From: Eggerthella timonensis
Lineage (GTDB): Bacteria > Actinomycetota > Coriobacteriia > Coriobacteriales > Eggerthellaceae
Direction: 5' to 3'
NCBI RefSeq assembly: GCF_900184265.1
Contig: NZ_FXXA01000002.1
Coordinates: forward strand, 1,200,918-1,264,917
DNA: 64,000 nucleotides
Position numbers and translations under genes: made by a program. The notes beneath the pieces are model-generated. The model was not told where the DNA came from, searched no databases, and saw nothing but the letters and a program-made list of their open reading frames with translations. Shown in pieces: positions 1,624 to 27,476 of this stretch (position 1 is its first letter; every line of letters begins with the position of its first letter).

Positions 1624-1626
1624 GGT

Positions 1627-7231: not shown

Positions 7232-9109
7232 ATGAGTGCTTATACTGCTGCGTCCGTCGAAGACGCGGCGAACAATCTTCTTGAAGAACTGCATAAGGAA
7301 GCGGGCGAAGCTGCCAGCGTTTGCGCGTGCTTGGAGCACGACGCGTCCGACGACGTCGCGCCGGCGCTGCTGGCGTGCGCGCGCAGCGTTGCCGCGACGG
7401 GCTCGCCCGTGCGCATCGTGTGCGCCGACGCGGTGGCGGCCGGGCGCTACCGGGCGCTCGTGGGCGACGACCCGCTGCTGGGCGAGGCCGACGTGGTGTC
7501 GATGCGCGAGCTGGGCCTGGCTGTCATGGGCGATGCGCGGGTGCAGGACGCCGTGGGCCGCGCCGCGCGCGTGCTCGACGACAACGAGCTGGCCGTGCTC
7601 ATGGAGGACGTGAAGGTGAGCGGGCTCAAGCCCGGCCGCTTGCGCGAGATGCTCAAGTTCTTCTACAAGAGCATGAGCGAGTGCGCCGACGAGGACGAGC
7701 GCTGGTTGATCACCGCCGAAGAGCAGACCGTGCACGCCATCCTGACCGAGAACCTCGAGGTGCGGCGCGCGCTGCTGCCGTGCGAGGTGTCGTCGCTGGC
7801 CTATCGCGGCCTGGTGGCCGCCGGCATCGAGCCCGAGCCGCTGACGCTCGTGGTCGACGACTACGGCTCGCTCAGCAAGGCGTCGCAGCGTCTCGTGCGC
7901 CATCTGGCCGTGAGCGGGCTCGTGGCCGCCGGGCGCACGCTGGCCGCGCCGAGCGCCGAGGAGCCGTACCCGTGCTTCGAGGGGTTCCGCGCCTTGGCTG
8001 ACGAGGCCGGTTGCCTGGTGACGCTGGCGGCCGAACGGCCGGAGGCGGTGCGCGAGAGCCGCGCGCTCGACGATCCCGAGGCCGAGTGCGCGTTCGTGGC
8101 CGCATCGGTGGAGGCGTGCCTGAACGACGGTGTCGCCCCGCGCGATGTGCTGGTGGCGGTGCCGAACGCCGCTTGGGGCGCGCGCGTGTCCGCCGCCCTC
8201 GAGGCGCGCGGCGTCGCGGTCGAGCGCGGCTTCGGCGGCGGGAAGATCAAGGGCGACCCCCGCACTGAGGGCCGCTTCGCCGACCTCAAGCTGGCCGCGT
8301 TCTTGCGCCTGTACCTCGACCCGCACGACTTCACGTCGCTGCGTTCATGGTTGGGATTCGGCGACTGGCTGCTGCGCTCGGACGCGTTCTTGGAGCTGAT
8401 GGCGTATGCGCGCGAGCGCGACATCGCCGCGTCGGAGGCCGTGGCGCAGCTGCGTACACAGCGGGACGCCGACCGCGCCTCGACGATCTTCGGCAAGTTC
8501 GACGGCCCGCTCGACGAGCTGGACGAGCTGCAGCGGGCGTGCGCGGGCGGTTTGACGCGCGAAGCCGCCGTGGAGCTGTTCGACGCGCACGGGATGCCGT
8601 TGTCCCCGCGCCTGGTGGAACTGCTGGGCGACGATGCCGCGCATGCCGACATCGAACGCCTGGCGCGCGAAGCGTTCCGCGCGCCGGTCGAGGACGTTGC
8701 GCGCGACGCCGTGCACGTCGTCGCGTACGCGCGCTGCCATGGGCGCCATGTGCGCATCGCGTTCGTCACCGGCCTCGTGAACGGCTTCCTTCCCGCGAAC
8801 GATGCGGTGGACGACAAGTTCACCATCGACCACCGCCGCGTGGCCCTCGAGCGCGAGCGCGCGCTGTTCCTCGACGTGCTGGCCACGGCCGGCGAGCGCA
8901 CGGTGTGCACGCGCTTCATGCGCGACCGCCTGGAGAACACCGCGTTTACCAAGGTGCAGACCACGCGCGTGTTCATGCGCGATGGCGAGCGCCTGGCGAG
9001 CGTGGCGCCGTCCGAGTTCGCGTCCCTCGACGAGGAAGCGCTGTCCCTGGCGCCCGATGTGCCGCGCGAGCTGCCAACCAAGGTGCTCTACGCATCCACG
9101 ACCATGTAG
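7232..9109 (+). CDS. Helicase-like protein of module A (UvrD/AddB fold, no Walker A)
   Basis: This 625-residue protein is a paralogue of the gene at 20738-22561. Both share VKVSGLKPGRLREMLKFFY (here near residue 130), an acidic Walker B-like LVVDDYGSLSKASQRLV near 210, and a C-terminal FVTGLVNGFLPANDAVDDK. This last segment resembles the late helicase motifs of UvrD and AddB proteins. The N-terminus, where the paralogue has GGVGSGKT, has no phosphate-binding loop, so ATP hydrolysis is unlikely. The ATG at 7232 follows a GGAG site. It opens a plus-strand run with an acidic protein, a TorD-type chaperone and ferredoxins. Its function is unknown; a structural or regulatory role beside the molybdoenzyme maturation genes is a guess. 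Confidence 0.75.
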   Translation: MSAYTAASVEDAANNLLEELHKEAGEAASVCACLEHDASDDVAPALLACARSVAATGSPVRIVCADAVAAGRYRALVGDDPLLGEADVVSMRELGLAVMGDARVQDAVGRAARVLDDNELAVLMEDVKVSGLKPGRLREMLKFFYKSMSECADEDERWLITAEEQTVHAILTENLEVRRALLPCEVSSLAYRGLVAAGIEPEPLTLVVDDYGSLSKASQRLVRHLAVSGLVAAGRTLAAPSAEEPYPCFEGFRALADEAGCLVTLAAERPEAVRESRALDDPEAECAFVAASVEACLNDGVAPRDVLVAVPNAAWGARVSAALEARGVAVERGFGGGKIKGDPRTEGRFADLKLAAFLRLYLDPHDFTSLRSWLGFGDWLLRSDAFLELMAYARERDIAASEAVAQLRTQRDADRASTIFGKFDGPLDELDELQRACAGGLTREAAVELFDAHGMPLSPRLVELLGDDAAHADIERLAREAFRAPVEDVARDAVHVVAYARCHGRHVRIAFVTGLVNGFLPANDAVDDKFTIDHRRVALERERALFLDVLATAGERTVCTRFMRDRLENTAFTKVQTTRVFMRDGERLASVAPSEFASLDEEALSLAPDVPRELPTKVLYASTTM

Positions 9110-9113
9110 AGGC

Positions 9114-9137
9114 TCCGGCGGCTTGCCGGCCGCCGGA
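9114..9137 (+). other. Intercistronic stem-loop
   Basis: A perfect 9-bp GC stem (TCCGGCGGC / GCCGCCGGA) with a six-base loop lies 4 bases after the helicase-like gene. No T-run follows, so it may stabilise or attenuate the transcript and not end it. Confidence 0.5.
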
Positions 9138-9182
9138 CCCTCGCGATTCCCAACCCCCGGTGTTTTGAAAGGACTGAGAGAT

Positions 9183-9992
9183 ATGAGCGATGTCGATGTT
9201 TTTGTGATCGATGACGATTTCGACCCCCTGGCCGACTTGAGTTTGGACGACGGCGAGCGGGACGACGCCGAGGCGGACTACCTGCCGCCCATCCCCGACG
9301 CCGACAAGAGCGTGGTGCCTCCGGTGGTGCCGCTGTCGCCGGCCGAGCGCATCGAGAAGCTGCTGGCGGGCATTCCCGGCCAGCAGTTCCGCCTGCTGCA
9401 CGCCGTGGCGTTCTGCGTCGAGCCGAAGACGATGGACGAAATCGTGATCGACCTGGACGCGGCGTATCCCGCCACCACGAGCGTGTACGGCTCGGCGCAG
9501 GTGGTGCAGCTGCTCGAGCGCGACGGCGCCCTCGAGCGCATCGCGGACGAGGGCACCGAGGGCGCCGACAGCGTCGACGATGCCGCCGCCGACGCCGCCG
9601 TGCCCGCCGAGGACGAGGGCGACTTCATCTCGGTGACGCCTGCGGCGCCGTGCCGCTACCGGGCCACCCGTGCCGGACTCGACGCCGTCGCTGCGCACGT
9701 CAACGAGAACCGCGTGGTCGAGAAGGTCACGGAGGACGAGCGCTACCTGCCCATCTTCCAACGCGTGCTGGAGCTGTGCGCGCGCGAGGGCGGCTGCCCC
9801 ACCAAGGAACTCGATCAGGCGGTGGACGGCGATCCGCTGTGCCAAGAACCGCGCCGCTTCTGCGGGTTCTTCCGCGGCAAGCTGGAAGAGACGGGCGCCA
9901 TCGAATGGCGCGACGCCTGGACCATCACCGATCTGGGCCGCAGCGTGCTCGCGTCCGGCGTGTTCGCCGCAACCTCTTCGACCGAACGCTAG
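9183..9992 (+). CDS. Acidic protein of unknown function, module A
   Basis: I do not recognise a named family in this 269-residue protein. It begins with an acidic stretch (VFVIDDDFDPLADLSLDD) and has a middle part that reads like a winged-helix fold (AERIEKLLAGIPGQQFRLLH). The C-terminal half has the pattern ERYLPIFQRVLELCAREGG and ends in WTITDLGRSVLAS. The protein at 25193-26053 follows the same plan (DYDGFDPLEDFDDDE, APIYQRILNLCAADGG, WCITDIGRTGLDL), so it is a conserved part of the module. The start follows AAAGGA. It lies 14 bases before the TorD-type gene and is probably cotranscribed. A role as an adaptor or enzyme-maturation partner is only inferred from its place. Confidence 0.8.
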   Translation: MSDVDVFVIDDDFDPLADLSLDDGERDDAEADYLPPIPDADKSVVPPVVPLSPAERIEKLLAGIPGQQFRLLHAVAFCVEPKTMDEIVIDLDAAYPATTSVYGSAQVVQLLERDGALERIADEGTEGADSVDDAAADAAVPAEDEGDFISVTPAAPCRYRATRAGLDAVAAHVNENRVVEKVTEDERYLPIFQRVLELCAREGGCPTKELDQAVDGDPLCQEPRRFCGFFRGKLEETGAIEWRDAWTITDLGRSVLASGVFAATSSTER

Positions 9993-10006
9993 AGAAGGAG
10001 CTACTC

Positions 10007-10732
10007 ATGTCCCATGATCAGGAAATCGACTTCGCCGACGTGCTGCGCGGCCGCAGGGCAACCTACCAATTCCTCTCGCGCCTGTTCCGCGTGGAGGTCG
10101 ATCAGGAGCTCTACGACACGCTTCTGTCCATGCGCTTCCCGACGAACACCGGCAACGAGCTGGTGGACGAGGGCTATCGGCTGATCTGCGGCTACCTGAG
10201 CCAGGCCGACGGATGCGTGCTCACCGAGCTGGCGGTGGACTACGTGCGCGCGTTCATCGGGTCGGGCAACGACGGCTTCTCGGCCGCGTATCCGTACGAG
10301 TCGGTGTACACGAGCCCGAAGCGTCTCATGATGCAGGACGCGCGCGACGAGGTGCTCGTGTTGTACCGCGCCTTCGGCCTGGACAAGCAGGAAAGCTGGA
10401 AGGAGGGCGAGGACCACATCGCGCTGGAGCTGGAGTTCGAGCAGATCCTGTGCGAGCGCGCCATCGCCGCGTACGAGGCCGGCGACGAGGACGAGTGCCT
10501 GAAGCTGCTGCTGTCGCAGCGCAACTTCCTGGAGGACCACCTGCTGGCATGGTACCCCATGATGGCGGCCGACCTGCGGAAGTTCCCCCAGACCGACTTC
10601 TACAAGGGGCTAGGCAAGCTGACCGACGGCTTTTTGCGCAACGACCGGGAATTCCTGGACGCCGTGCTGTCCGAAAACGAAGTCGCGGAAGCGGATGCGT
10701 GCGAAGCCGAGGCGGAAGTCGAGGTTGCGTGA
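10007..10732 (+). CDS. TorD/DmsD-family molybdoenzyme chaperone, module A
   Basis: This 241-residue, all-helical cytosolic protein belongs to the TorD family, which binds the Tat signal of DMSO reductase-type enzymes and holds them until the cofactor is inserted. Family-like features are AVDYVRAFIGSG near residue 78, AYPYESVYTSPKRLM near 95, and EDHIALELEFEQIL near 138. A well-placed AGAAGGAG precedes the ATG. Its stop overlaps the next start (TGATG), coupling it to the NapG-like gene. The paralogue at 24480-25190 is close in sequence. The likely clients are the DmsA-type enzymes in this window, but which ones is not shown. Confidence 0.88.
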   Translation: MSHDQEIDFADVLRGRRATYQFLSRLFRVEVDQELYDTLLSMRFPTNTGNELVDEGYRLICGYLSQADGCVLTELAVDYVRAFIGSGNDGFSAAYPYESVYTSPKRLMMQDARDEVLVLYRAFGLDKQESWKEGEDHIALELEFEQILCERAIAAYEAGDEDECLKLLLSQRNFLEDHLLAWYPMMAADLRKFPQTDFYKGLGKLTDGFLRNDREFLDAVLSENEVAEADACEAEAEVEVA

Positions 10733-11373
10733 TGGGCGAGCACGACGTCGAGCCCAAGCGCGCTGCGAGCCCCCGCGTGTCGCGCCGCACGTTCGCCCTG
10801 GGCGCCGTGGGCGCTTGTGCCGTCATCGGCCTGGGCGGCGTGAAGTACCTTCCGAGCCAGACGCTGCTGCGCCCGCCGGGAGGGCAGGACGAGGAGCAGC
10901 TCGTGCGCGGCTGCCTACATTGCGAGAAGTGTCGCGAGGTGTGCCCGAAGCATGCCATTGCGCCTGCTCATCTTGAGGACGGCATCTTGAACGCGCGCAC
11001 GCCGCGCATGGACTTCAAGAGCGGATGGTGCGATTTCTGCGAAAACGAGCCGGGTGGGCCGAGGTGCGTCGCGGCGTGCCCGACGCATGCGCTCGTGTGC
11101 CCCGACCCGTCCACGGCGATCATCGGCAAGGCGGAGCTCAACCGCGATTGGTGCCTGGCCGCGAAGGGCATGGGCTGCCACGAGTGCGTGGACGTGTGCA
11201 ACTACGAGGCGCTCGAGCTGGGCGCCGACAACGTGCCCGTGGTGGATGTAAACGCGTGCAACGGCTGCGGCGCTTGCGAGCTGGCGTGCATCTCGCTGTC
11301 GGCCGGTTCCATCACGGCCGGCGCCACCGATCGCGCCATCGTCATTCGTCCGACCGAAGAAGTGGAGGCGTGA
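10732..11373 (+). CDS. NapG-like Tat-exported four-cluster ferredoxin, module A
   Basis: This 213-residue protein has a Tat-type N-terminus (SRRTFALGAVG near residues 18-28 and a hydrophobic helix). Four cysteine groups follow: CLHCEKCREVC near 62, CDFC with CVAAC near 98-112, CLAAKGMGCHECVDVC near 140, and CNGCGACELAC near 178. This matches the NapG/MauM ferredoxin type, which passes electrons on the outer face of the membrane together with a NapH-type partner. It is coupled to the chaperone gene before it and followed after 5 bases by the NapH-like gene. The paralogue at 23813-24454 has the same length and the shared segment LRPPGGQDEEQL. Confidence 0.9.
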   Translation: MGEHDVEPKRAASPRVSRRTFALGAVGACAVIGLGGVKYLPSQTLLRPPGGQDEEQLVRGCLHCEKCREVCPKHAIAPAHLEDGILNARTPRMDFKSGWCDFCENEPGGPRCVAACPTHALVCPDPSTAIIGKAELNRDWCLAAKGMGCHECVDVCNYEALELGADNVPVVDVNACNGCGACELACISLSAGSITAGATDRAIVIRPTEEVEA

Positions 11374-11378
11374 GCGGG

Positions 11379-12323
11379 ATGAAGAAGCTCAAAACCTATC
11401 GACTGCGGTTCCTGATCATGCTGGCGGTGCTCGCCGTGGTGGCCGTGGGATACTTCACGGCCGGCGGCATCGGCAACTTCTGCGGCATCGGCTTCGAGTC
11501 CATCACGCTGCTGTGCCCCCTGGGCGCGCTGCTGGCCATGATCGCCGAGCGCACGGCCATCCCGATGGCCGTGATCAGCGTGGCGGTCGTGCTCGTGGTG
11601 TGCATCGCGCTGGGCAAGGTGTTCTGCGCCTGGGCATGCCCCGTGCACTTCATGTCGCGGGGAAAGAAGAAAGGAGACAAAGGGACGGGGTTAACGTCTC
11701 ATTCCGCAGGTGACGAGACGGACGCATCGCACCCCGCTCCCGCTCCCCGTACCCCCTGCTCCGCCTGCGCTTCTCCTTGCGGCAAGGCCAAGGGCATCAA
11801 AATCGACAGCCGCCACGGCATCCTCGCGGCGGCGCTGGGATCCACGCTCGTCTTCGGCTTCCCGGTGTTCTGCCTCATCTGCCCGATCGGCCTCACGTTC
11901 GCCACGGTGCTGCTGGTCATGCGCCTGTTCGCGTTCGGCGACACCACGTGGACCGTCGTCGCCTTCCCGCTCATCATCGCGCTGGAGATCCTGCTGCTGC
12001 CGAAGTGGTGCCAGCGCTTCTGCCCCCTGGGCGCGCTGCTTTCGCTGTTCAGCGGGCTGAACCGGACGTTCCGCCCCCAGGTGGACGCCGGGAAGTGCCT
12101 GCGCGAGGGCCGCGGCAAGGCCTGCAACCTGTGCGAGCAGGCGTGCCCCGAGGGCATCAACCTGCACGACATCGCGGCGGGCGAGACGACGCTCAACGAC
12201 TGCAGCAAGTGCCGCGCTTGCGCCGACGTGTGCCCCGAGCACGCCATCACGTTCCCGCTGCTGCCGAAGAAGCAGGCGCAGGTGACGGAGCTGCCTGTCG
12301 ACGAGATTCCGGAAAGGGGGTAG
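11379..12323 (+). CDS. NapH-like membrane ferredoxin, module A, with repeat-derived insert
   Basis: This 314-residue membrane protein has four to five helices and the paired cysteine motifs of NapH-type quinol dehydrogenases (LLCPLGALLAM, CAWACPVHF, CLICPIGLTF, WCQRFCPLGALLS). A C-terminal pair of [4Fe-4S] motifs follows (CNLCEQACPEG, CSKCRACADVC). It probably oxidises menaquinol and feeds the NapG-like partner just upstream. Residues around 98-109 (GDKGTGLTSHS) are encoded by a copy of the GAGACAAAGGGACGGGG repeat inserted in frame in the loop between the second and third helices, where the paralogue at 22776 has an unrelated, charged linker. The ATG at 11379 was preferred over a GTG at 11370. 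Confidence 0.88.
   Translation: MKKLKTYRLRFLIMLAVLAVVAVGYFTAGGIGNFCGIGFESITLLCPLGALLAMIAERTAIPMAVISVAVVLVVCIALGKVFCAWACPVHFMSRGKKKGDKGTGLTSHSAGDETDASHPAPAPRTPCSACASPCGKAKGIKIDSRHGILAAALGSTLVFGFPVFCLICPIGLTFATVLLVMRLFAFGDTTWTVVAFPLIIALEILLLPKWCQRFCPLGALLSLFSGLNRTFRPQVDAGKCLREGRGKACNLCEQACPEGINLHDIAAGETTLNDCSKCRACADVCPEHAITFPLLPKKQAQVTELPVDEIPERG
11674..11705 (+). repeat. GAGAC-type palindromic repeat inside a coding sequence
   Basis: The 27-base unit from 11674 to 11700 begins GAGACAAAGGGACGGGG and ends GTCTC, followed by ATTCC. It matches the intergenic copies at 20667, 27801, 35051, 53893, 54216 and 57241. It lies within the NapH-like gene and keeps its reading frame open. Confidence 0.9.
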
Positions 12324-12326
12324 GCC

Positions 12327-13529
12327 ATGTCCCTGATCAACGGCCTGCTGGCCCTGCTGGGAGAAATCGAGAGCGACGCCATCGCCGTGCACGAGGAGCG
12401 CTGCATCTCGGTGCGCAACCGCAACGCCGACTGCCTGCGCTGCGTGGAGGCGTGCACGTCGGGCGCGTTGGCGTACCGCACGGGCGAGCTGCTCGTGGAG
12501 CCCGAGCGCTGCATCGGGTGCGGCACGTGCGCCACAGCGTGCCCCACCTGCGCCATCGAGCTGCGCAACCCGACGGACGCCGAGCTGACGGTCCAGCTCA
12601 AGCACTCTATCGTGGCGACGAAGGGCCATCCCGTCATCGTGTGCGAGACGGCGCTCGAGGCGGCCGGCGTCGCGGTCGACGACGCGCCGGCCGCGTGCGC
12701 GGTGCCGTGCTTGGGCCGCATGGACGAGTCGGCGCTCGTGGGGCTGGCGGCGTACCGCGCCTTCGACGCGACCCTCGCGTGCGGTCCGTGCGAGACGTGC
12801 CCGCATGCACCGGGCGGCGCGCTCATGCGCGACGTGGTGGAGGGCTCGCGCAACCTGCTGGAGGCGTTCGGGTCTTCCATGCCCGTCGAGGTGGTGGAGC
12901 ACGTGCCCGAACGCGTGCTGGTTTCCGACGCGTCCGGCGGCGCGCGTCGCCAGGGCGGCGACGGGGTGGGGCGGCGCGATTTCTTCCGCTCTGCCAAGGA
13001 CGCGTCGACCCGTGCAGCCGGCGCGGCGGTGTCCGCGGAGCTGGGGATGGCCGACGCCGAGCCCGTTCCCGCGGCGTATCGCAAGGTGGGGGCCGACGGC
13101 ACGCTGTCGCAGTTCGTTCCCACGCGTCGCGTGCGCCTGTACAACTACCTGCAGCATATCGGCCAGCCGGAGGCGGACGAGGTGGAGACGCGCGTGATCG
13201 GCGCCGTGTCCATCGACGCTGAACGGTGCAGCTCGTGCCGCATGTGCGCGGTGTTCTGCCCCACGGGCGCCATCAAAAAGCTCGACGAGGACGGCGTGTT
13301 CGGCGTCGTGCACCGTCCGAGCGCCTGCATGCAGTGCCGTCTGTGCGAGCGCATCTGCCCCGAGCATGCCATCACGGTGAGCGGGCGCGTGCCCATCAAG
13401 CAGTTCATGGGCAAGGAAGCCGTATGCTTCGCCATGAAGCGTCCTGCGTGGACCCCGAACAAGCCCTCGTCGATGTACGATAAGCTGCACTCGACGCTCG
13501 GCGAAGACTTAGAGATGTGCATGTTCTAA
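12327..13529 (+). CDS. Four-cluster ferredoxin with central non-cluster domain, module A
   Basis: This 400-residue soluble iron-sulfur protein has two clusters at the N-terminus (CLRCVEAC near 36 and CIGCGTCATAC near 59), then about 220 residues without cluster spacing, then two more (CSSCRMCAVFC near 300 and CMQCRLCERIC near 335). The middle holds a VPCLGRMDES segment and a twin-arginine-like GRRDFFRSAKDAS near 215 that is not at the N-terminus. Its paralogue at 26292-27476 has the same plan. It follows the NapH-like gene by 3 bases and probably links cytosolic electron donors to the module. The exact partner is not known. Confidence 0.82.
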   Translation: MSLINGLLALLGEIESDAIAVHEERCISVRNRNADCLRCVEACTSGALAYRTGELLVEPERCIGCGTCATACPTCAIELRNPTDAELTVQLKHSIVATKGHPVIVCETALEAAGVAVDDAPAACAVPCLGRMDESALVGLAAYRAFDATLACGPCETCPHAPGGALMRDVVEGSRNLLEAFGSSMPVEVVEHVPERVLVSDASGGARRQGGDGVGRRDFFRSAKDASTRAAGAAVSAELGMADAEPVPAAYRKVGADGTLSQFVPTRRVRLYNYLQHIGQPEADEVETRVIGAVSIDAERCSSCRMCAVFCPTGAIKKLDEDGVFGVVHRPSACMQCRLCERICPEHAITVSGRVPIKQFMGKEAVCFAMKRPAWTPNKPSSMYDKLHSTLGEDLEMCMF

Positions 13530-13532
13530 AGG

Positions 13533-13562
13533 GGTTCCGTCGGCCTGACGGCCGACGGAACC
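13533..13562 (+). terminator. Stem-loop after module A ferredoxin
   Basis: Perfect 13-bp stem (GGTTCCGTCGGCC and its complement) with a TGAC loop, 4 bases after the stop codon. There is no following T-run. A second, imperfect hairpin rich in GCGAGGG lies at about 13600-13648. Confidence 0.65.
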
Positions 13563-13717
13563 GGTCGACGCTGCGGTTTCCCATGCCACCCGATCTCGCG
13601 GCGAGGGCGAGGGTTCGCGTACCGAAGTACGCTTCGCCCTCGCCTTGCCCACGATCTCGGCCACCAGGGTGCCTCTCGCTGACGTTACGAACGACCAGTA
13701 AGTATCGGAGGATCGAC

Positions 13718-14575: not shown

Positions 14576-14584
14576 GGGCCGCGC

Positions 14585-14787
14585 GACACGCGAATCGCCA
14601 AGTTCCAAGCAATTTTTGCGTTTTGCGAACGTTCGGGGCGCGCGCTATCTTGCCGCGACCAGGTTAGCATCGCCCGACCTGCGGAAACGCGAAGACCGTC
14701 TTTGCGGGTCGGCATCCGAGGGCGCTTTGAGACGCCGAATCGTTCGCAAAACGAAAAAATTGCTTAGCACGGGCGAATTCGCGTGTC
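14585..14787. repeat. About 200-bp imperfect palindromic element
   Basis: The outer arms 14585-14595 and 14777-14787 are perfect complements (11 bp). Inner arms 14607-14631 and 14741-14765 match at 24 of 25 positions, and smaller GC hairpins fill the middle. It fills the gap between the convergent U32-like and lipoprotein genes and may act as a two-way terminator. I see no gene in it. Confidence 0.8.
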
Positions 14788-14808
14788 CGACCGCGCGGAG
14801 GTCACGCG

Positions 14809-15327: not shown

Positions 15328-15375
15328 CGGGCGTTCCTTTCTCGTGCGGTCGGCTTCCCACCATGATAGCAGCTG

Positions 15376-17388: not shown

Positions 17389-17408
17389 GTGAGGTTGATG
17401 CTGCGCGC

Positions 17409-20659: not shown

Positions 20660-20666
20660 CTGTGCA

Positions 20667-20760
20667 ATGAGACAAAGGGACGGGGTTAATGACTCATTCC
20701 CCCGTCGATCATGTCCCGATGCTCTCTGAATGAGTCATTAACCCCGTCCCTTTGTCTCAT
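20667..20760. repeat. Inverted pair of GAGAC-type repeats
   Basis: The 33-base copy at 20667-20699 (starting ATGAGACAAAGGGACGGGG) is the perfect reverse complement of 20728-20760, with 28 bases between. The right copy overlaps the last seven codons and stop of the helicase-like gene. The pair forms a strong hairpin between two convergent genes and could end both transcripts. Confidence 0.95.
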
Positions 20761-22561
20761 CCAGGAACACGCTGGGCTCGATGGCGCAGGTGCGGATGCC
20801 GTCCTTCAGGCGGATGCGGCTGATCTTGAGCTTCAGCTTGCCCGCGCTTTCGAGGTCGGTGGACGTGAAATACGACAGCGCCAGCGTGCGGCCGGCCTTT
20901 CCCGTCAGCGCGCGCACGCGCCGCTCGTCGACGGCGCGCATCTTCTCCTGGCGCTCGGGCGGGGTCACCGTGGCGTCGAAGTAGTCGCGGGAGGGGATGA
21001 AGCCGTTGACGAAGCCGGCGACGATCAGCAGGTCGGGCGAGAAGCCGCACGCGAGGTCGTAGGGAACGACGGCCACCGCGTCGGCAGCCTCCAGGGTGGG
21101 TGCGAGCAGGCGCTCGGCCAGGCGCCGCGTCATCGCGGCGGCATCGTCGGCCGCGCCGCCGCTGCCCGAGCCGTCGTCGGCCAGGCACCGCTCGCGCAGG
21201 ACGGCGGGTGCGTGCTGCTCCGTCCCTCCGGTGACGATGCGCGCCAGCTCGTCGAGCAGCGCCTCGCCCGTCAGCCCGCGCGCCTGCTCGATGAGCGCGC
21301 GCCCGGCGCGGTGCGCTTCGGCCACGCGCTGCGCGCCCACCACCTGGTCGTCGCTGCTGTCGACGGCAGCGAGCGCCTGCACGAGGCCGATGCCCTGCTC
21401 CTCGGCGCGCGAGCGCAGGTTGGCGAGGGCCGCGCTGTTCACGAGGTAGTCGCCGAAGCCGCACCAGCAGCGCCACGCCGCGGCGTCGTCCGGGTTCGCC
21501 GCCAGGTTGAGCGCCGTCGCGATGCGCGCGGGCACGCAGCGGGCGTTGTCGCGGATGTCGCCGCGCAAAGGCTGCGCGTCGGGAAGCGCTTCGGCGCGCA
21601 CGCCCTGCGCCGCGAGCGCGACGACCACGTTGCGCGACCACACGCCGTTCGGCACGGCCACGACGATCCGCCGCGCGGACGTGCCGGCGGCGACGGCCTC
21701 GGCGACGGTGCGCGCGACCAGCTCGAACTCGGCTTCGGGGGTGTCGCTGCGCAGGACCAGCGGGGTGCGCGCGGCGGCCGCATCGGCGGCCAGCCGCTCG
21801 TGAACGGCGTGGGGATGCGTCGCGAGGAACTCGTCGATCCCGTCGGCATAGGGGTAGGAATCGTACACCTCGATGCAGGTTTCCGCATCGCCCGCCACGG
21901 CGATCGAGCGTGCGGCGACGAGGCTCGCCAGCGTTTGGGAGGCGCGGCTCGCGCACGCGAAGTCGTCCACCAGCACGTGCGCCCAGGAGCGGGCGGCGCG
22001 CGCTTCGTCGCAGCCGCGCAGGTAGCGCACGGCGAGGTTCGCCGCCTCGGGCTCCACGATGGCGCGCATGAAGGACAGGTTCGCCTTCAGCAGCGCATGG
22101 ACGTCGGTCTCCTCGCCCGGCAGCAGCCAGGCGGGATCGTCGTCGGCCAGCTCGGTCCACGACCGGTAGAAGAACTTGAGCATCTCGCGCAGCCGCCTCG
22201 GCCTGAGCCCGCTCACCTTCATGTCCTCCATGAGGAACGTCTCCTCGAAGGCGGTCAGCAGCCGCGGCTCCCGTCCCGACCAGCGGCGCGCGCCATCGTC
22301 GGCCAGCACGTCGAGCGCCAAGGCCCGCGCGGTGGTCACGGTCGCGCCCGCGGCGCGCTCGGCGCCTGCCCGGGCGGCCAGCCGCTCCGAGAACAGGCGC
22401 GCCGCCTGGGGCGTCGCGCACAGCACCAGCACGCTGTGCGCCGCTGCGTCCTTCGTCAGCAGCGCGGCGGCGCGCTCGACGAGGCGCTGCGTCTTGCCGC
22501 TGCCGACGCCTCCGGTGATGAGCAGGGATTCCGTCGTTTCGAAGGTCGTTTCACCTGTCAT
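20738..22561 (-). CDS. Superfamily-1 helicase-like ATPase of module B
   Basis: This 607-residue protein begins with a textbook phosphate-binding loop (LLITGGVGSGKTQRLVERAA, residues 13-32) as in UvrD/RecB/AddB helicases. It has a Walker B-like VLVDDFACASRASQTLA near 190 and VAGFVNGFIPSRDYFDATV near 515. It shares MKVSGLRPRRLREMLKFFY with the module A paralogue. The last seven residues (DETKGRG) and the stop come from a GAGAC-type repeat, so the C-terminus is shorter than in the paralogue. No nuclease motif is seen. It is separated from the NapH-like gene by a double hairpin. DNA translocation is possible, but the context points to respiratory enzyme assembly; the function is unknown. Confidence 0.8.
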   Translation of the reverse strand: MTGETTFETTESLLITGGVGSGKTQRLVERAAALLTKDAAAHSVLVLCATPQAARLFSERLAARAGAERAAGATVTTARALALDVLADDGARRWSGREPRLLTAFEETFLMEDMKVSGLRPRRLREMLKFFYRSWTELADDDPAWLLPGEETDVHALLKANLSFMRAIVEPEAANLAVRYLRGCDEARAARSWAHVLVDDFACASRASQTLASLVAARSIAVAGDAETCIEVYDSYPYADGIDEFLATHPHAVHERLAADAAAARTPLVLRSDTPEAEFELVARTVAEAVAAGTSARRIVVAVPNGVWSRNVVVALAAQGVRAEALPDAQPLRGDIRDNARCVPARIATALNLAANPDDAAAWRCWCGFGDYLVNSAALANLRSRAEEQGIGLVQALAAVDSSDDQVVGAQRVAEAHRAGRALIEQARGLTGEALLDELARIVTGGTEQHAPAVLRERCLADDGSGSGGAADDAAAMTRRLAERLLAPTLEAADAVAVVPYDLACGFSPDLLIVAGFVNGFIPSRDYFDATVTPPERQEKMRAVDERRVRALTGKAGRTLALSYFTSTDLESAGKLKLKISRIRLKDGIRTCAIEPSVFLDETKGRG

Positions 22562-22601
22562 GGGTTTTCATTCCTCCAGGTCGCGTTCGTCAGGTTCGGT
22601 G

Positions 22602-22706
22602 CGGAAGCGGCACCCCTCTTTCATCGGGAGGGAGGGGGAGGGGTGCCGCTTCCGGGCAAAAGGCGGCTTGTCCCCCAGAGCCCTTGCCAAGCCGCCTTTT
22701 GCCCGG
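22602..22706. repeat. Two adjacent perfect stem-loops
   Basis: Stem one pairs 22602-22617 with 22639-22654 (16 bp). Stem two pairs 22652-22670 with 22688-22706 (19 bp); the two overlap by three bases. A third CGGAAGCG-like motif follows near 22727. It lies between two same-strand genes of module B and may set their relative expression. Confidence 0.85.
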
Positions 22707-22775
22707 AAGCGGGGCGCGCCCGATTCCGGAAGCGCGGCCCGGCTGCTGCAGCTGGCCGGGCCGTGCGGGAGGGGT

Positions 22776-23804
22776 TTACGGTGCGGTGCGCGCATCGTCG
22801 GCGTTGCGAGCGTCGCTCGTGCCGGCCGCATCGACGGTCGTGGCGACGGGTGCGTCCGACGAGCGCTTGGGCAGCAGCGGCATGGTGATCGCGTTCGCGG
22901 GGCATGCGTCCACGCAGGCGCGGCATTTCGTGCACTCGCTCCATGCGGCGCGCGACAGCTGCGGATGGCGCGGGTCGATGCCCTCTTCGCAGGCGCGGCC
23001 GCAGGCTCCGCACGCGGCTCCCTTGGCCGTCTCCAGGCACAACCCATCGTCGATTGTGGGCACGAACGTCTTGTTCGCCTTCGCGATGAGGCTCATGAAC
23101 GCCGAGAGCGGGCACAGCTTGTGGCACCACTTCTTGAACAGCAGCACTTCGGCGATGAGCAGCGCGGGCACCACGATGAGCGACCAGGTGACGTCGCCGT
23201 GCGCGAACAGGTTGATGACCAGCAGGATGGTGGCGAACGTGAGCCCGATGGGGCAGACGAGGCAGAACACCGGGAAGCCGAAGACGAAGGTGGACGCCAA
23301 CGCGCCGCCCAGCACGAAGTGGCGCGCGTCGGGCGCGGCCCCGCGCTTGGCCGCGCAGGAGGCGCATCCGCCCGCGTCCTTCGCTCCCTTCGAGCACGAG
23401 ACGCTCAGCGCGTCGGCCTCGGCCTTCGTGAGCGGCGCGGCAGCGGGCTCGGGCTTGGTGTCGACGTCGGCGTCGACGGCATCGTCGCGCTTGGCAGGCT
23501 GCTTCTTCGCGAACACGCCGCGCAGCTTCTGCACGAGCGGCACGGGGCACATCCATCCGCAGAACGCGCGAGCGAACAGGACGATGAGCAGCACCATCGC
23601 GATCAGCGAGATCACGGCGCGCGGCACCATCATCTTGGAGGCGAGCATGGTGCCCAGGGCGCCCAGCGGGCACAGGATGGAGATGTCCCAGATGCCCGGC
23701 GCCGACATGGTGCCGATCCCGACGTTCGTCACGAAGCCGACGGTGACGACGGCGATGATGGCCAGCGCGCAGGCGGTGCGCAGCGTTTTGGAATTCTTCT
23801 TCAT
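22776..23804 (-). CDS. NapH-like membrane ferredoxin, module B
   Basis: This 342-residue membrane iron-sulfur protein is a paralogue of 11379-12323. NapH-type motifs are LCPLGALGTM near 45, CGWMCPVPL near 83, FCLVCPIGLTF near 180 and WCHKLCPLSAFMS near 225. The C-terminal cluster motifs are CGACGRACEEG and CTKCRACVDAC. The linker between helices two and three is long and charged (DAVDADVDTKPEPAAAPLTK) with CASCAAK, where the module A copy carries a repeat insertion. The C-terminal tail of about 30 residues is low in complexity. It starts 8 bases after the NapG-like gene and probably oxidises quinol for it. Confidence 0.9.
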   Translation of the reverse strand: MKKNSKTLRTACALAIIAVVTVGFVTNVGIGTMSAPGIWDISILCPLGALGTMLASKMMVPRAVISLIAMVLLIVLFARAFCGWMCPVPLVQKLRGVFAKKQPAKRDDAVDADVDTKPEPAAAPLTKAEADALSVSCSKGAKDAGGCASCAAKRGAAPDARHFVLGGALASTFVFGFPVFCLVCPIGLTFATILLVINLFAHGDVTWSLIVVPALLIAEVLLFKKWCHKLCPLSAFMSLIAKANKTFVPTIDDGLCLETAKGAACGACGRACEEGIDPRHPQLSRAAWSECTKCRACVDACPANAITMPLLPKRSSDAPVATTVDAAGTSDARNADDARTAP

Positions 23805-23812
23805 GGGGGCAC

Positions 23813-24454
23813 CTATCCTTCAACTTCGTCGAGCGGGTGGACGACGATGGCGCGCGCCGTGGCCCCCTCGGCGATGGAGCCGTTTTGCAGCGAGACGCAC
23901 ACGCTCTCGCACGCGCCGCATCCGTTGCACTTGTCCTCCAGCACGATGGGACGGTTGTCCTTGTCCAGCTCCATGGCCTCGTAGGGGCACGCGTCGTAGC
24001 AGAACCGGCATCCGGTGAGCTTGTAGGCCAGGCACCAATCCTCGTGGATGACCGCCTTGCCGATGATGGTGTTCTCGGCCGTGGCGTCGGCGGGCAGCTT
24101 GAGCGCTTCGGTGGGGCAGGCGCTCACGCACAGCGGGGTGCCGTCGTGCTCGTCGGCGCACCAGTCGCACCAGTTCGCGGAGAAGTCGAACGTGGGGGTG
24201 CGCATGTTCAGCACGCCGTCCTCGAGGTGGGCGGGCGCGATGACGTCGCGCGGGCAGATCTCGTAGCATTTCTCGCAGCGGATGCACGCCGAGATGAGCC
24301 GCTCCTCGTCCTGGCCTCCCGGCGGGCGCACGAGGGACTGCGATCCCGCGTACTTCAATCCGCCCAAGCCCAGCATGACCGCCGCGCCGCCCGCGCCCAA
24401 GCACAGCGTGCGGCGCGTCATGCCGGCGTAGGTTCTCTCCTGCTTGTTCTCCAT
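23813..24454 (-). CDS. NapG-like Tat-type four-cluster ferredoxin, module B
   Basis: This 213-residue protein has a Tat-type start (MTRRTLCLGAGG near residue 12) and four cluster motifs: CIRCEKCYEIC near 57, CDWC with CVSAC near 92-108, CLAYKLTGCRFCYDAC near 141, and CNGCGACESVC near 178. It is the same length as the module A copy at 10732 and shares RPPGGQDEE. It probably sits outside the membrane and accepts electrons from the NapH-like protein encoded next. The TorD-type gene lies 25 bases upstream on the same strand. Confidence 0.9.
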   Translation of the reverse strand: MENKQERTYAGMTRRTLCLGAGGAAVMLGLGGLKYAGSQSLVRPPGGQDEERLISACIRCEKCYEICPRDVIAPAHLEDGVLNMRTPTFDFSANWCDWCADEHDGTPLCVSACPTEALKLPADATAENTIIGKAVIHEDWCLAYKLTGCRFCYDACPYEAMELDKDNRPIVLEDKCNGCGACESVCVSLQNGSIAEGATARAIVVHPLDEVEG

Positions 24455-24479
24455 CGCTCCTTCTTTCGATCCCGCGCGG

Positions 24480-25190
24480 CTAGTCCGCGGCCAGCACGTC
24501 GGCGAGGAACGCCTCGTCGGTTTGGAGGAAGCCGTCCGTCAGGTACGCGAGGCCGCGGTAGAGGTCGGTCTGCGCGAAGCGCTTCATGTCGGACGTCATC
24601 ATGGGGGCCCATGCCGCCAGGTGGTCTTCGAGGAAGTTCTTCTGCGCGGTCAGCAGGGCGATCGCCTCGGCCTCGTCGCCGCCGCGCAGCGCGTTCACCG
24701 TGCGCGTGGCCATGATCTGCTGGAATTCCAGCTCGAGCGCCACGTGGTCCTCGCCCTCCTTCCACGTGTCCTGCTTGTCGAGGCCGGCGCTGCGGTAGAT
24801 GGCCAGCACCTCGTCACGTGCCTCTTGCATGAGCAGGCGCTTCTCGGAGGTGTACACCGATTCGAACGGGTAGGCGGCCGAGAACGCGTCCACGCCGTGC
24901 CCGATGAACACGCGCACGTAGTCGATGGCGAGGTCGGTGATGCTGTTGTCCCAGGTGTTGCTCAGGTACGTGGCCAGCAGGCGGTAGCCCTCGTCCACGT
25001 TCTTGTTGCCCGTCTTGGCAGGGAAGCGCATGCCGCGCAGCTCGTCGAGGAGAGGCTCGTCCACCTCCACGCGGTACAGGCGCGACAGCAGGCCGTACGT
25101 GGCGGCGCGCTGCTCGTTGAGGGTGATGAACTCCTGCATCGTGGCCTCGTCGGCGAGGGGCTGGGGTGCGGATGCGGTTGCGTCGGTCAT
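24480..25190 (-). CDS. TorD/DmsD-family molybdoenzyme chaperone, module B
   Basis: This 236-residue helical chaperone is paralogous to 10007-10732. Shared family features are AIDYVRVFIGHG near 88, AYPFESVYTSEKRLLMQ near 105, WKEGEDHVALELEFQQIM near 140 and LTAQKNFLEDHLAAWAPMM near 175. The ATG at 25190 follows AAGGAGGAC and lies 2 bases after the stop of the acidic protein gene, so the two are likely cotranscribed and coupled. It probably guards Tat substrates of the DMSO reductase family during cofactor loading. Confidence 0.9.
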   Translation of the reverse strand: MTDATASAPQPLADEATMQEFITLNEQRAATYGLLSRLYRVEVDEPLLDELRGMRFPAKTGNKNVDEGYRLLATYLSNTWDNSITDLAIDYVRVFIGHGVDAFSAAYPFESVYTSEKRLLMQEARDEVLAIYRSAGLDKQDTWKEGEDHVALELEFQQIMATRTVNALRGGDEAEAIALLTAQKNFLEDHLAAWAPMMTSDMKRFAQTDLYRGLAYLTDGFLQTDEAFLADVLAAD

Positions 25191-25192
25191 GG

Positions 25193-26053
25193 TTAGTCCT
25201 CCTTGGATGCGGCGGTTGCGGGGGCGTCGGCGAGCAGGTCGAGGCCGGTGCGGCCGATGTCGGTGATGCACCACGCCTTCTTCCAGACGAGCGCGTCGCA
25301 TTTCTCCAGCCGGTCGATGAAGTGGGGCGCGTAGAAGCGGGGCTTCTGCACGAGCGGATCGTGGTCGACCGCGTCGTTGATAGCGGGCGTGGCGGCGCCG
25401 CCATCCGCTGCGCACAGGTTGAGAATGCGCTGGTAGATGGGCGCGTAGGCGGCATCCTCCTCCAGGAGGGCGCGCAGGCGGTCGAGCGGCTTGTCGGCTT
25501 CGAGCGCCGCGATGCCGGGCGCGGTGGCAAGCCAGTAGGTTTCGACGGGCTCGCGCGCTTCCAGGTACTCGACGCCGTCCACGACGACGGTTTCCGGCTC
25601 GATCTCGGCGTCGTCGGCGGGATCGCCGTCGGCCGTGACGCGCTCGAGCGCGCCCGCCTTCTCCAGCAGGGAGCACAGGTTGGCCGCGCTGTACACCGAG
25701 AAGTTGTTCGCTTGCAGCTCGTCCACCTGCGCCTTCACGGCGGAGGCGGGCTGCGGCTGGGCGCACGCGGCCAGGATGCCCAGCAGCACCGTGCGGCGCG
25801 GCGCCATGGCTTTCAGCAGGTCGTCGATGCGTTCCTCGGCGGGGCGCTCGCAGGCGACGGACGCGCCGGACGGGGTCGCGTCCGCACCGGCGTCCGCGTT
25901 CTCGCGTGCGAGCGCATCCTCGGCGGCGCTCACCGTGGCGACGAACTCGTCGGCACGCCCTTCGGTTTCGTCGTCGTCGAAGTCTTCAAGTGGATCGAAC
26001 CCGTCGTAGTCGGGCTCAAGAGAAAGGTGTTGGTTCGTGGAATCGTGAGTCAT
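25193..26053 (-). CDS. Acidic protein of unknown function, module B
   Basis: This 286-residue protein is paralogous in layout to 9183-9992. It has an acidic N-terminus (DYDGFDPLEDFDDDE), a helical middle (ERIDDLLKAMAPRRTVLLG) and a C-terminal part with YAPIYQRILNLCAADGG and WKKAWCITDIGRTGLDL. No named family is recognised. The ATG at 26053 (MTHDSTNQ) was chosen over one at 26092 because GAGGGGCGG precedes it and the homologous acidic start follows. It is the first gene of the minus-strand half of module B and faces the ferredoxin gene at 26292 across a gap with nested dyads. Confidence 0.78.
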   Translation of the reverse strand: MTHDSTNQHLSLEPDYDGFDPLEDFDDDETEGRADEFVATVSAAEDALARENADAGADATPSGASVACERPAEERIDDLLKAMAPRRTVLLGILAACAQPQPASAVKAQVDELQANNFSVYSAANLCSLLEKAGALERVTADGDPADDAEIEPETVVVDGVEYLEAREPVETYWLATAPGIAALEADKPLDRLRALLEEDAAYAPIYQRILNLCAADGGAATPAINDAVDHDPLVQKPRFYAPHFIDRLEKCDALVWKKAWCITDIGRTGLDLLADAPATAASKED

Positions 26054-26067
26054 GTTCCGCCCCTCGT

Positions 26068-26140
26068 GACATTGTTTGCATCTACGGCGCACAGCACCGC
26101 GAACCTCACCCCTGAGGTTCCCACTTTTGCAAACAATGTC
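26068..26140. promoter_or_regulatory. Nested dyads in the divergent module B promoter region
   Basis: An outer 13-bp perfect inverted repeat (GACATTGTTTGCA at 26068-26080, complement at 26128-26140) encloses an inner 8-4-8 hairpin at 26101-26120 (GAACCTCA/TGAGGTTC). It starts 15 bases upstream of the acidic protein gene. It may be a paired operator or an RNA leader structure. A TATACT box at 26249-26254 faces the ferredoxin gene. Confidence 0.6.
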
Positions 26141-26291
26141 CGCTTCGCACGCAACCTGCGTGCCGGCGGACTCCCCAAGGCCACATGATAGGGAGCGCCG
26201 CGAAAGGTGTCAAGCGCGATTTTTCTCGCACGCTGCGGCGAAAGTGGCTATACTAGGCGGTGCAAGGGGGTAGACGAGAAAGGGTGAAGTC

Positions 26292-27476
26292 ATGGCTCAC
26301 GTGGCTAATTTCCTCGGTCTGCTCGAACAACTTCAGAGCGCCGACATCACGGTTCATCAGGGCCGTTGCGCTGTTGTGCGCAATCGCAACGCGACGTGCA
26401 TGAAGTGTGCCGAGGTGTGCACGAGCGGTTGCATCTCCTACGACGACAACGAGCTGACCATCGAGCCCGAGCGGTGCATCGGGTGCGGCACCTGCGCCAC
26501 CGTGTGCCCCACCTGCGCGCTCGAGGCGCATCGTCCAAACGATGCCGAGCTGCTGCAATCGTGCCGCGCGGCCTGCGAGGCGGCCGACGGCGAGGTGGTC
26601 GTCGCGTGCGAACAGCTGCTTGCCGCGGCGGACGGGCTGTACGACCCCGCGAAGGTGGTGGGCGTCACCTGTTTGGGACGCGTGGAGGAGAGCCTGCTGG
26701 TCACGCTGGCGGCGCGCGGCGCGCGACGCGTGGTCCTCGTGCAGGCGCGGTGCGCGGAGTGCGAGCACGCCTCGGGGTTCGAGACGGCCCGGCTCGTGCG
26801 CGACACGGCGCTCGCGCTGCTGGAAACCTGGAACAACGATATGCGCATCGACCTGGTGGAAAAGCTTCCCTCGGCCGTGCGCCGGTCGGGCGACGAGGGC
26901 TACGACGCAAGCCGCCGGAGCTTCTTCTCCAGCGTGAAGGACGAGGCGAAGAGCGCCGCGGCGGTCACCGCCGACTACGCCGTCAAGGACGCGCTGGGCG
27001 TGGAGGAGCCGCCGGAGCCGAAGTTCGTGAAGGTTGGCAAGGACGGCACGCTGCCTCATTTCATCCCCGACCGCCGCGGTCGCTTGCTTGCGGCGCTCGG
27101 CGCGCTGGGGCAGCCGCAGGACGTGCTCATCGACACGCGCCTGTGGGGTCACGTGATCATCGACCCCGAGAAGTGCTCGTCGTGCCAGATGTGCGCTACG
27201 TTCTGTCCCACCGGGGCCATCGCGAAGTACGCGGGCGAGGACGGCTCGATCGGCGTGACGCACCGTCCGGTCGATTGCGTGAAGTGCCGGTGCTGCACCG
27301 ATATCTGCGCGCAGGGGGCGCTCGAGCTGTCCCACGAGGTGTTCGCCGTCGACCTGCTGTCGGGCGCGCAGGAGCGCTATCCGATGAAGCCGCTCAAGAA
27401 CCCTCCGGGCAACCCCCACCAGATCTGGCACTCCATGAAGGCTCTCCTCGGCTGCGACCAGGTGTACGAGCGCTAA
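26292..27476 (+). CDS. Four-cluster ferredoxin with central non-cluster domain, module B
   Basis: This 394-residue soluble iron-sulfur protein is a paralogue of 12327-13529. The N-terminal clusters are CMKCAEVC near 37 and CIGCGTCATVC near 60; the C-terminal clusters are CSSCQMCATFC near 297 and CVKCRCCTDIC near 331. The middle includes VGVTCLGRVEESLLVTLA and CAECEH, plus an internal twin-arginine-like ASRRSFFSSVKDEAKS near 210. Here it is transcribed away from the rest of the module, whereas in module A all genes are on one strand. It probably moves electrons between cytosolic donors and the membrane pair. Confidence 0.82.
   Translation: MAHVANFLGLLEQLQSADITVHQGRCAVVRNRNATCMKCAEVCTSGCISYDDNELTIEPERCIGCGTCATVCPTCALEAHRPNDAELLQSCRAACEAADGEVVVACEQLLAAADGLYDPAKVVGVTCLGRVEESLLVTLAARGARRVVLVQARCAECEHASGFETARLVRDTALALLETWNNDMRIDLVEKLPSAVRRSGDEGYDASRRSFFSSVKDEAKSAAAVTADYAVKDALGVEEPPEPKFVKVGKDGTLPHFIPDRRGRLLAALGALGQPQDVLIDTRLWGHVIIDPEKCSSCQMCATFCPTGAIAKYAGEDGSIGVTHRPVDCVKCRCCTDICAQGALELSHEVFAVDLLSGAQERYPMKPLKNPPGNPHQIWHSMKALLGCDQVYER

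Follow-up and report, generated by a model that had tools for sequence, protein, structure and literature searches.

Accessory genes of catechol dehydroxylases

How gut bacteria process dopamine, catechins and lignans is determined by catechol dehydroxylases. In the passages of their 2025 paper that bear on this locus, Dong et al. have described a set of genes for helicase-like, hypothetical, TorD, NapG, NapH and ferredoxin proteins, named DadhD-I (PMC11887054). There, dadhD-H are reported as indispensable, and the expression host, G. urolithinfaciens, could not make dopamine dehydroxylase (Dadh) work without the accessory genes. Dadh expression is lost upon deletion of dadhD, as it is upon deletion of the activator gene dadR, whereas most other inactive deletion strains keep it, and the authors prefer a role for DadhD at the locus or on mRNA. 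These passages refer to DadhD as a helicase domain-containing protein and leave its motifs unmentioned; the loss of Walker A and the fold of DadhE are added here. Our search of literature listings and open main-text passages found helicase, dehydroxylase and Eggerthella joined in this paper alone and returned no discussion of lost ATP motifs in DadhD; by term search, the word helicase is absent from the main texts of PMC11585353 and PMC12771579. The system is known and the link of the helicase gene to it was published in 2025: the sequence-only reading had proposed an undescribed function, and the published passages already give the same accessory gene types and a helicase-gene deletion phenotype. 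What is new, and open to test, is the reading that DadhD acts without ATP.

We analyzed a window of 64,000 nucleotides from Eggerthella timonensis. Gene calls bear out the sequence-only reading in placing the same six gene types in two modules, A (7232-13529) and B (20738-27476), with order and strand rearranged between them and all six kept in each. Module A has the same six gene types as E. lenta dadhD-dadhI and the same neighbours (DadhABC, dadR and dadS), and it shares the order given in the passages of PMC11887054: DadhABC, then dadR and dadS on the other strand, then D-I. The reverse strand encodes a DadhC-like membrane anchor (122-991; Pfam DmsC, 1e-10), a DadhB-like 4Fe-4S subunit (991-1623; Pfam Fer4_11, 9.3e-24) and a DadhA-like molybdopterin catalytic subunit of the dopamine dehydroxylase type (1627-4680; Pfam Molybdopterin and Molydop_binding). 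The opposite, forward strand encodes a DadR-like LuxR-type regulator (5171-6550; Pfam GerE at residues 394-448 of 459), positioned as dadR is in PMC9734109, and a DadS-like short LysR-type regulator comprising the HTH part alone (6555-6998; Pfam HTH_1, 6.9e-22).

The accessory genes follow on the forward strand: the helicase-like protein (HEL; 7232-9109), counterpart of DadhD, with a UvrD fold without Walker A; the acidic protein (ACD; 9183-9992), counterpart of DadhE, with an acidic tail and then two winged-helix domains; a TorD-type chaperone (10007-10732; DadhF counterpart); a NapG-like ferredoxin (10732-11373; DadhG counterpart); a NapH-like membrane ferredoxin (11379-12323; DadhH counterpart); and the ferredoxin FD4 (12327-13529; DadhI counterpart), which has several Fer4 matches and whose translation, read directly, contains four cysteine-motif groups. 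Helicase-domain, hypothetical, TorD-like, NapG-like, NapH-like and further ferredoxin genes thus all stand together, adjacent to dadhABC. The 285-aa gene downstream (13718-14575) matched no Pfam family. The DadhA-like subunit is of the Dadh type and carries Arg506, as dopamine-metabolizing strains do; published non-metabolizing strains, e.g. E. lenta DSM 2243, have Ser506, as does the G053 copy, to which the subunit is 97.5% identical. From gene order and the Dadh subunit, we equate HEL with DadhD and assign module A as the accessory half of the dopamine dehydroxylase (dadh) locus.

In module B, five genes lie on the reverse strand: HEL, with the Walker A motif GGVGSGKT kept (20738-22561), a NapH-like membrane ferredoxin (22776-23804), a NapG-like ferredoxin with 57% identity to the module A copy (23813-24454), a TorD-type chaperone (24480-25190) and an ACD with 32% identity to that of module A (25193-26053). 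FD4 is on the forward strand (26292-27476) and shows Fer4 matches and a weak FlpD-type stretch (1.4e-4). To the right, a reverse-strand regulator gene (27916-29448), whose translation reads as having a LuxR-like C-terminal stretch, diverges from the first dehydroxylase-type operon beside the module, the catalytic subunit of which has Pfam Molybdopterin domains (29721-33029, forward strand). This resembles the E. lenta catechin dehydroxylase (cadh) set in the passages of PMC11887054, where the accessory genes likewise end a row of dehydroxylase operons and divergent LuxR-type regulators also stand at such operons; the likeness is one of arrangement, not of gene-by-gene order.

We consider it likely that both modules are catechol dehydroxylase accessory sets in which HEL is a non-motor, UvrD-fold protein that acts by binding. 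Each module would let the Eggerthella cell make a catechol dehydroxylase, which belongs to the DMSO reductase superfamily and is a bis-MGD molybdoenzyme. Module A would serve the dopamine dehydroxylase encoded at 122-4680, and module B the dehydroxylase-type operons to its right. By homology to the E. lenta set, for which there are published predictions and deletion results, TorD would keep hold of the catalytic subunit, with its Tat signal, until cofactor insertion, and electrons would reach subunit B by way of the NapG- and NapH-like proteins.

Family assignment and linkage

Pfam and NCBIfam scans took in ten of the twelve module proteins, and the module B NapG-like protein was placed by its identity to that of module A. 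Both TorD proteins contain a Nitrate_red_del domain well over the Pfam cut-off (PF02613, 113.7 bits for module A and 119.8 bits for module B, cut-off 22.2), as expected of TorD/NarJ chaperones. Those of the electron-transfer proteins that were scanned give clear hits, yet score under the NCBIfam curated cut-offs: 63.2 bits (2e-17) versus 269 for the module A NapG-like protein, and 70.6 bits (module A, 1.5e-19) and 74.0 bits (module B, 1.3e-20) versus 213 for the NapH-like proteins. By these scores they are related to NapG and NapH of the Nap system and are not members of those families. Module B HEL (HEL_B) matches UvrD-helicase (PF00580, 1.2e-11) at residues 9-125 only and has additional weak P-loop hits. 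For module A HEL (HEL_A) and both ACD proteins, no Pfam family came up at E 1, and NCBIfam yielded a single chance-level match (0.15); HEL_A and HEL_B are homologous to each other (36% identity, E 6.8e-59).

The HEL family is present in 57 of 396 Coriobacteriia genomes and was met in that class only, the search beyond it being one single-pattern scan; ACD was found in 10 of 396 phylum genomes searched, all in the family of the window's genome. Linkage was counted within 10 kb of 64 HEL loci (L106 was dropped from the motif, linkage and co-divergence counts as an overlap of L067). Partners occur near HEL at most loci: TorD at 54, ACD at 54, NapG at 57, NapH at 53 and FD4 at 50, and a dehydroxylase-type catalytic ORF is near 51. 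All five partners are present at 42 of the 64, which upholds the proposal that the helicase-like gene belongs with the TorD/NapG/NapH/ferredoxin set. A third HEL copy in the E. timonensis genome also adjoins TorD and ACD.

At least one partner is missing at the other 22 loci. Ten of these have neither TorD nor ACD: six with 8-10 kb visible on both sides (L065 and L066, with a ferredoxin as sole partner; L101, with none of the five; and L102, L105 and L113), and four near the end of a stretch or contig (L075, L078, L092 and the first copy of L072). The remaining 12 have NapG, NapH and/or FD4 missing. Only two loci lack all five partners, and one of these is on a contig of 4.3 kb.

The linked genes also diverge in step. 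Identity matrices of HEL, ACD, TorD, NapG and NapH from 47 modules (five of the six families, FD4 being left out) correlate pairwise at r 0.82-0.91, and the maximum r over 200 permutations per pair was 0.17. This co-divergence, together with the proximity of TorD and ACD and the rarity of partnerless loci, makes it hardly credible that HEL is a DNA-repair helicase of the AddB/RecB or UvrD type adjoining the operon by chance, even though its fold is of the UvrD type and AddB is among its structure matches (E 1.7e-14). Had HEL been part of a repair complex, it might have been found beside AddA/RecB-type genes: no helicase-related open frame of at least 900 aa, the size of AddA, occurs in the 67 stretches scanned, and the genome's other UvrD/AddA-type frames (787, 835 and 1992 aa) are each over 800 kb away from any of the three HEL genes.

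Fold and motif loss of the helicase-like protein

The model of HEL_A (pLDDT 91.4, pTM 0.90) shows a complete UvrD fold with the four domains, 1A, 1B, 2A and 2B, of superfamily 1A helicases. It aligns to UvrD (PDB code 2is4) over 537 residues at 4.4 Å (VIA Z 28.9), followed by PcrA (Z 26.1) and Rep (Z 25.7). The UvrD part of the earlier description of HEL as UvrD/AddB-like therefore stands, as a UvrD/PcrA-like fold, and the AddB part does not: UvrD, PcrA and Rep rank first by both Foldseek and VIA, and AddB, a weaker relative of the same fold, ranks lower and is about twice as long. At 607-625 residues (versus 1132-1156 for AddB chains), HEL leaves no room for a C-terminal nuclease part. RecC and AddB are examples of a helicase fold reused without motor activity; HEL likewise has a helicase fold, but it is about half as long, and the scanned stretches show no partner of AddA size. 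RNA-polymerase-bound HelD was also considered as a functional parallel and rejected, as its Z of 17.9 is well under that of UvrD and close to those of many SF1/SF2 helicases.

HEL_A has the whole fold of UvrD, PcrA and Rep in common with them, but the catalytic motifs of the HEL family are lost or changed, and HEL has been met so far in Coriobacteriia alone, mostly beside molybdoenzyme genes. Motif positions were taken from a profile alignment with PcrA and Deinococcus UvrD, comprising 66 family rows (including the second copies L073|15823 and L095|2351 and the partial L067|18790). The Walker A lysine is present in 48 rows (2 gaps). The Walker B glutamate is present in none, 63 having aspartate there, and the motif III glutamine in 9. 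Most rows, 48 of 66, thus keep the P-loop lysine, so nucleotide binding matters somewhere in the family. The motif V glutamate is kept in 10 rows, and the motif VI arginine in 4, with lysine in 38 and 3 gaps. The retained residues of these three kinds count against the non-motor reading. HEL_A has no GxxGxGKT sequence and lacks all five of the residues named, from the Walker A lysine to the motif VI arginine. HEL_B retains Walker A but has neither the Walker B glutamate nor the motif VI arginine.

Conservation and the tree were calculated from 63 rows, leaving out those with 500 or fewer filled columns and the second copies L073|15823 and L095|2351. HEL_A falls in a supported clade (100/100) of 14 rows, none of which has the Walker A lysine. 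Two further Walker-less rows, L095 and L114, fall outside this main clade; L097 merely counts as one in the tree, its N-terminal part sitting in another frame. The P-loop site of HEL_A, between the first strand (30-36) and helix 43-55, reads DASDDV; the Walker-less loop is of an acidic EHDASDD type in Eggerthella and near relatives and has other sequences further out. The dN/dS of HEL_A versus three relatives is 0.23-0.41, which indicates that constraint persists; the ORFs compared run from stop to stop, and some non-coding overlap is included in them.

The sequence-only reading had suggested an ATP-driven step, for example in cofactor loading or assembly. In module A this is contradicted: the losses of the Walker A lysine, Walker B glutamate and motif VI arginine make such a step unlikely there, and DadhD-type HEL probably works without being a motor. 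More broadly, a role for HEL as an ATP-driven motor while the cofactor is loaded or the enzyme assembled is very improbable. The Walker A lysine in most rows, module B included, and the TorD-type partner adjoining HEL speak for it, but it leaves module A, with an otherwise equal gene set, having to do without ATP, and the Walker B glutamate and nearly all motif VI arginines are gone from the family as a whole. HEL_A would be without normal ATP binding, while HEL_B may still bind nucleotide as a switch. With no ATP site in HEL of the dopamine cluster, experiments are better aimed at its binding partners than at motor models; the HEL clades with and without a P-loop offer a natural comparison.

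The acidic protein and the mode of action

The AlphaFold2 model of module A ACD (ACD_A; pLDDT 84.2) shows two winged-helix domains. Structure matches to winged-helix proteins have a VIA Z of 8-9.7 per half, modestly above the tool's background of 7-8, and a best Foldseek E of 0.04; searching PDB sequences with a profile of ACD returned nothing useful (best E 0.84). The UvrD fold and winged helices are both nucleic-acid folds. ACD_A has a net charge of -32, and its presumed recognition helices are non-basic, which speaks against DNA binding; the structures here are predictions. HEL_A has a net charge of -33; of its six domain segments, five are net acidic and one is neutral. Charge per 100 residues averages -3.65 in Walker-less rows and -2.6 in P-loop rows, versus -1.45 for the genome's own UvrD/PcrA-type ORF, which is thus slightly acidic as well. 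The net charges of the two proteins and the non-basic helices of ACD_A favour protein binding over nucleic acid binding, although a protein of negative net charge may still have a basic groove locally.

As reported for DadhD in the passages of PMC11887054, HEL would be required for the enzyme to be detected. We infer that HEL acts by binding, and its partner likewise: it may scaffold the catalytic subunit, nascent or just made; the mRNA of that subunit or the locus is a less likely partner. In the latter case HEL would bind DNA, RNA or RNA polymerase and promote transcription or translation of the enzyme genes. This is a less probable, though still sizeable, alternative: the published dadhD phenotype, which the dadR deletion shares and most other inactive deletions do not, fits it, the UvrD fold does so too, the HEL_A model resembles RNA-polymerase-bound HelD among other SF1 matches, and binding of PcrA/UvrD to RNA polymerase is in print. 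Against it are the lost motor motifs, the acidic domain segments of HEL_A and a Z to HelD far under that to UvrD.

A bolder proposal, to which we give somewhat below even odds, is that DadhD-type proteins are retired superfamily 1 helicases that became maturation or stability factors for molybdoenzymes, with those of the dadh clade serving as a nucleotide-independent protein scaffold that allows the catalytic subunit to accumulate before TorD and cofactor loading. Such a role would be uncommon among helicase folds. For such a scaffold, the best-conserved region of HEL is placed in domain 1B. Domain limits for conservation and charge follow the secondary structure of the model and those of UvrD. 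On this division, 1B leads the six segments in conservation among Walker-less rows (mean 0.718), and its conserved block in HEL_A includes R110, R113, E125, D126 and W158. It also tops the P-loop rows (0.566, versus 0.557 for the P-loop segment), so conservation of 1B is not special to the Walker-less clade.

The two modules and the dopamine dehydroxylase locus

By gene calls, module A (7232-13529) and module B (20738-27476) each hold the six gene types described by the sequence-only reading, differing in order and strand: a helicase-like protein (HEL), an acidic protein (ACD), TorD, NapG-like and NapH-like proteins, and a four-cluster ferredoxin (FD4). Family scans agree with that reading's TorD, NapG-like, NapH-like and ferredoxin labels; they match the module B HEL to the UvrD family over residues 9-125 only, and match no family for the module A HEL or either ACD. 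The main point of the "undescribed function" proposed there had already been described: the available text of Dong et al. 2025 (PMC11887054) reports co-induced accessory genes of dopamine dehydroxylase (Dadh), encoding a helicase domain protein (DadhD), hypothetical DadhE, TorD-like DadhF and the ferredoxins DadhG, H and I. According to the same text, dadhB, dadR and dadhD-H were indispensable in the authors' host and dadhI, dadhC and dadS dispensable; Dadh was undetected after deletion of dadR or dadhD, and the dadh accessory genes could not be substituted by their cadh counterparts. The module system is real and strongly conserved. New here are the finding that the dopamine-type clade has lost its ATP site, fold predictions for the two unnamed proteins, and figures on the family's size and co-inheritance. 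The HELs of modules A and B are clear homologues (search match at 36% identity, E 6.8e-59), and the divergence between modules in the pairwise identity matrices (HEL 30%, ACD 32%, NapH 43%, NapG 57% and TorD 60% identity) fits the published non-exchangeability of the accessory sets.

The genes to the left of module A encode a DmsC-like anchor, a 4Fe-4S subunit and a catalytic subunit of molybdopterin type; a LuxR-type and then a short LysR-type regulator follow on the other strand. The available text of PMC9734109 describes the dopamine dehydroxylase locus with this layout, namely dadh, dadR (Elen_0473) and dadS (Elen_0474). The catalytic subunit shares 97.5% identity with its counterpart in G053, a compared genome that is probably E. 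lenta DSM 2243; position 506 is Arg in the window, given in that text as the residue of dopamine-metabolizing strains, and Ser in G053, matching the published residue. The DadS-like LysR gene (6555-6998) encodes only 147 residues, the HTH part alone, and gene calls at this position in other genomes are likewise short (85-209 aa). A 285-aa gene downstream of module A (13718-14575) has no Pfam match; genes of 285-292 aa occupy the same place in other genera. A series of dehydroxylase-type operons with divergent regulators has module B at one of its ends, the arrangement that the available text of PMC11887054 describes for cadh. More such operons, composed of a large subunit (892-1032 aa), a small subunit and an anchor-sized gene and seen from gene calls only at 36912-49814, are much like the published variable dehydroxylase clusters.

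In G053 the NapH-like gene at the dadhH position (L083:13219-15764) is broken by an IS110-family transposase gene. In published work plasmid-borne Dadh is reported to function in DSM 2243, although dadhH proved indispensable in G. urolithinfaciens; perhaps a paralogous NapH substitutes, or the strains differ.

Distribution and co-inheritance of HEL

With the module B HEL as query, 66 of the family's 138 genomes gave a match with an E of at most 1e-5, some of the matches being weak and probably to ordinary UvrD. A HEL profile at E 1e-20 matched 57 of the 396 class genomes, of which 43 belong to the same family, 13 to the rest of the order and 1 to the rest of the class. A one-peptide-pattern scan of 84,980 species genomes returned 34 loci, all under Coriobacteriia names.

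Linkage was counted over 64 HEL loci (60 HEL regions, the window and stretch L021, minus the overlapping L106), picked from the HEL hit list without prior inspection of neighbours and viewed over about 20 kb, some contigs being shorter. The helicase-like gene does mostly travel with the set, the linkage that the sequence-only reading had proposed to test: within 10 kb there was TorD at 54 loci, ACD at 54, NapG at 57, NapH at 53, FD4 at 50, and all five at 42. Exceptions viewed on both sides were L065 and L066 (ferredoxin only), L101 (no partner), and L102, L105 and L113 (without TorD or ACD). HEL was not seen beside AddA/RecB-type repair genes, the placement said there to refute that reading: the linkage stretches held no AddA-sized helicase-related frame, and AddA-like and other UvrD-type frames of the window's genome (3.9 Mb) are far from its HEL genes. 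That genome has 27 TorD-domain matches, giving a chance of about 1 in 7 of a TorD in a random 20-kb stretch, and just three HEL genes, of which the third, near C2:362,000, has TorD and ACD adjoining; most of its TorD systems therefore work without HEL.

A second, weak HEL-like frame, possibly a second helicase-like subunit or a fragment, occurs in addition to the main HEL at L073:15823-17760, L107:10941-12620, L091:14291-15328, L093:5832-6536, L094:5198-5803, L112:14603-15949, L095:2351-4597 and L115:18837-20000.

Pairwise identity matrices of HEL, ACD, TorD, NapG and NapH, from the 47 modules holding all five (ferredoxin left out), correlate at 0.82 to 0.91 (permutation maximum 0.17). Common species history adds to these values, but the rows include paralogous modules from one genome.

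Predicted HEL fold and loss of motor residues

Searched against the PDB, a profile of 19 HEL sequences matched PcrA and UvrD with a best E of 7.6e-27; the matches cover two parts of the 632-position profile, 12-89 and 190-588. The module A HEL model (pLDDT 91.4, pTM 0.90) resembles DNA-bound UvrD 2is4 (VIA Z 28.9, rmsd 4.4, 537 residues) as well as PcrA and Rep (Z 24-26), with a best Foldseek E of 1.5e-21. In motif columns taken from the profile alignment with PcrA and Deinococcus UvrD, the Walker A lysine is kept in 48 of 66 HEL rows; the second acidic residue of Walker B is never glutamate (0/66) and is aspartate in 63; the motif III glutamine occurs in 9, the motif V glutamate in 10, and motif VI has arginine in 4 and lysine in 38. 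The 14 dadh-type rows form a single clade (support 100/100), none with the Walker A lysine; three more rows without it fall outside this clade, one through missing data. In the module A HEL the P-loop position, which falls between strand 30-36 and helix 43-55, has the sequence DASDDV. Among the 14 clade rows, six have EHDASDD or EHDASYD in this stretch and two have ERGASDD; the other six vary more. The dN/dS of the module A HEL (0.23-0.41 against three relatives) indicates that the gene is not decaying, and is similar to that of the P-loop-bearing module B HEL (0.26-0.48). Domain 1B has 16 of 113 columns with conservation above 0.8 (63 rows) and the top mean conservation of six segments, both in Walker-less rows (0.718) and, by a narrow margin, in P-loop rows (0.566).

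The HEL gene of the third module of G053 (L097:9125-11075) changes frame after about 100 residues, leaving the P-loop part and the remainder in separate frames, through either a sequencing error or genuine loss of the P-loop part.

The whole set, by homology to the published system, matures and feeds a catechol dehydroxylase. Given the published requirement of HEL for Dadh detection, the retained UvrD fold, the lost motor residues, the conserved 1B block and an acidic average, a scaffold without a motor is the simplest account. HEL would bind, with no motor step, most likely the catalytic subunit; in P-loop-bearing members nucleotide may act as a switch. Alternatively the target is possibly mRNA or the locus, where the authors of PMC11887054 propose that DadhD works. 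The published loss of Dadh fits both roles alike and separates neither, since the available text gives no method of expression measurement.

Predicted ACD fold and possible partners

The ACD model (pLDDT 84.2, pTM 0.72) shows a poorly predicted acidic tail followed by two winged-helix domains. Each half matched many winged-helix regulators at VIA Z 8-9.7 (background bests 7-8), and the best Foldseek match to the model reached only E 0.04. ACD has a net charge of -32, the helices presumed to serve in recognition are non-basic, and the available text of PMC11887054 names only dadR and dadhD, not dadhE, as deletions that lose Dadh expression; together these favour binding to protein rather than to DNA. 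Distant ACD paralogues in the window's genome, at C2:32587-33225 (L022) and 2486560-2487153 (L023), have other TorD genes a few kb away and no HEL in view, so ACD may be a more widespread partner of TorD than HEL is.
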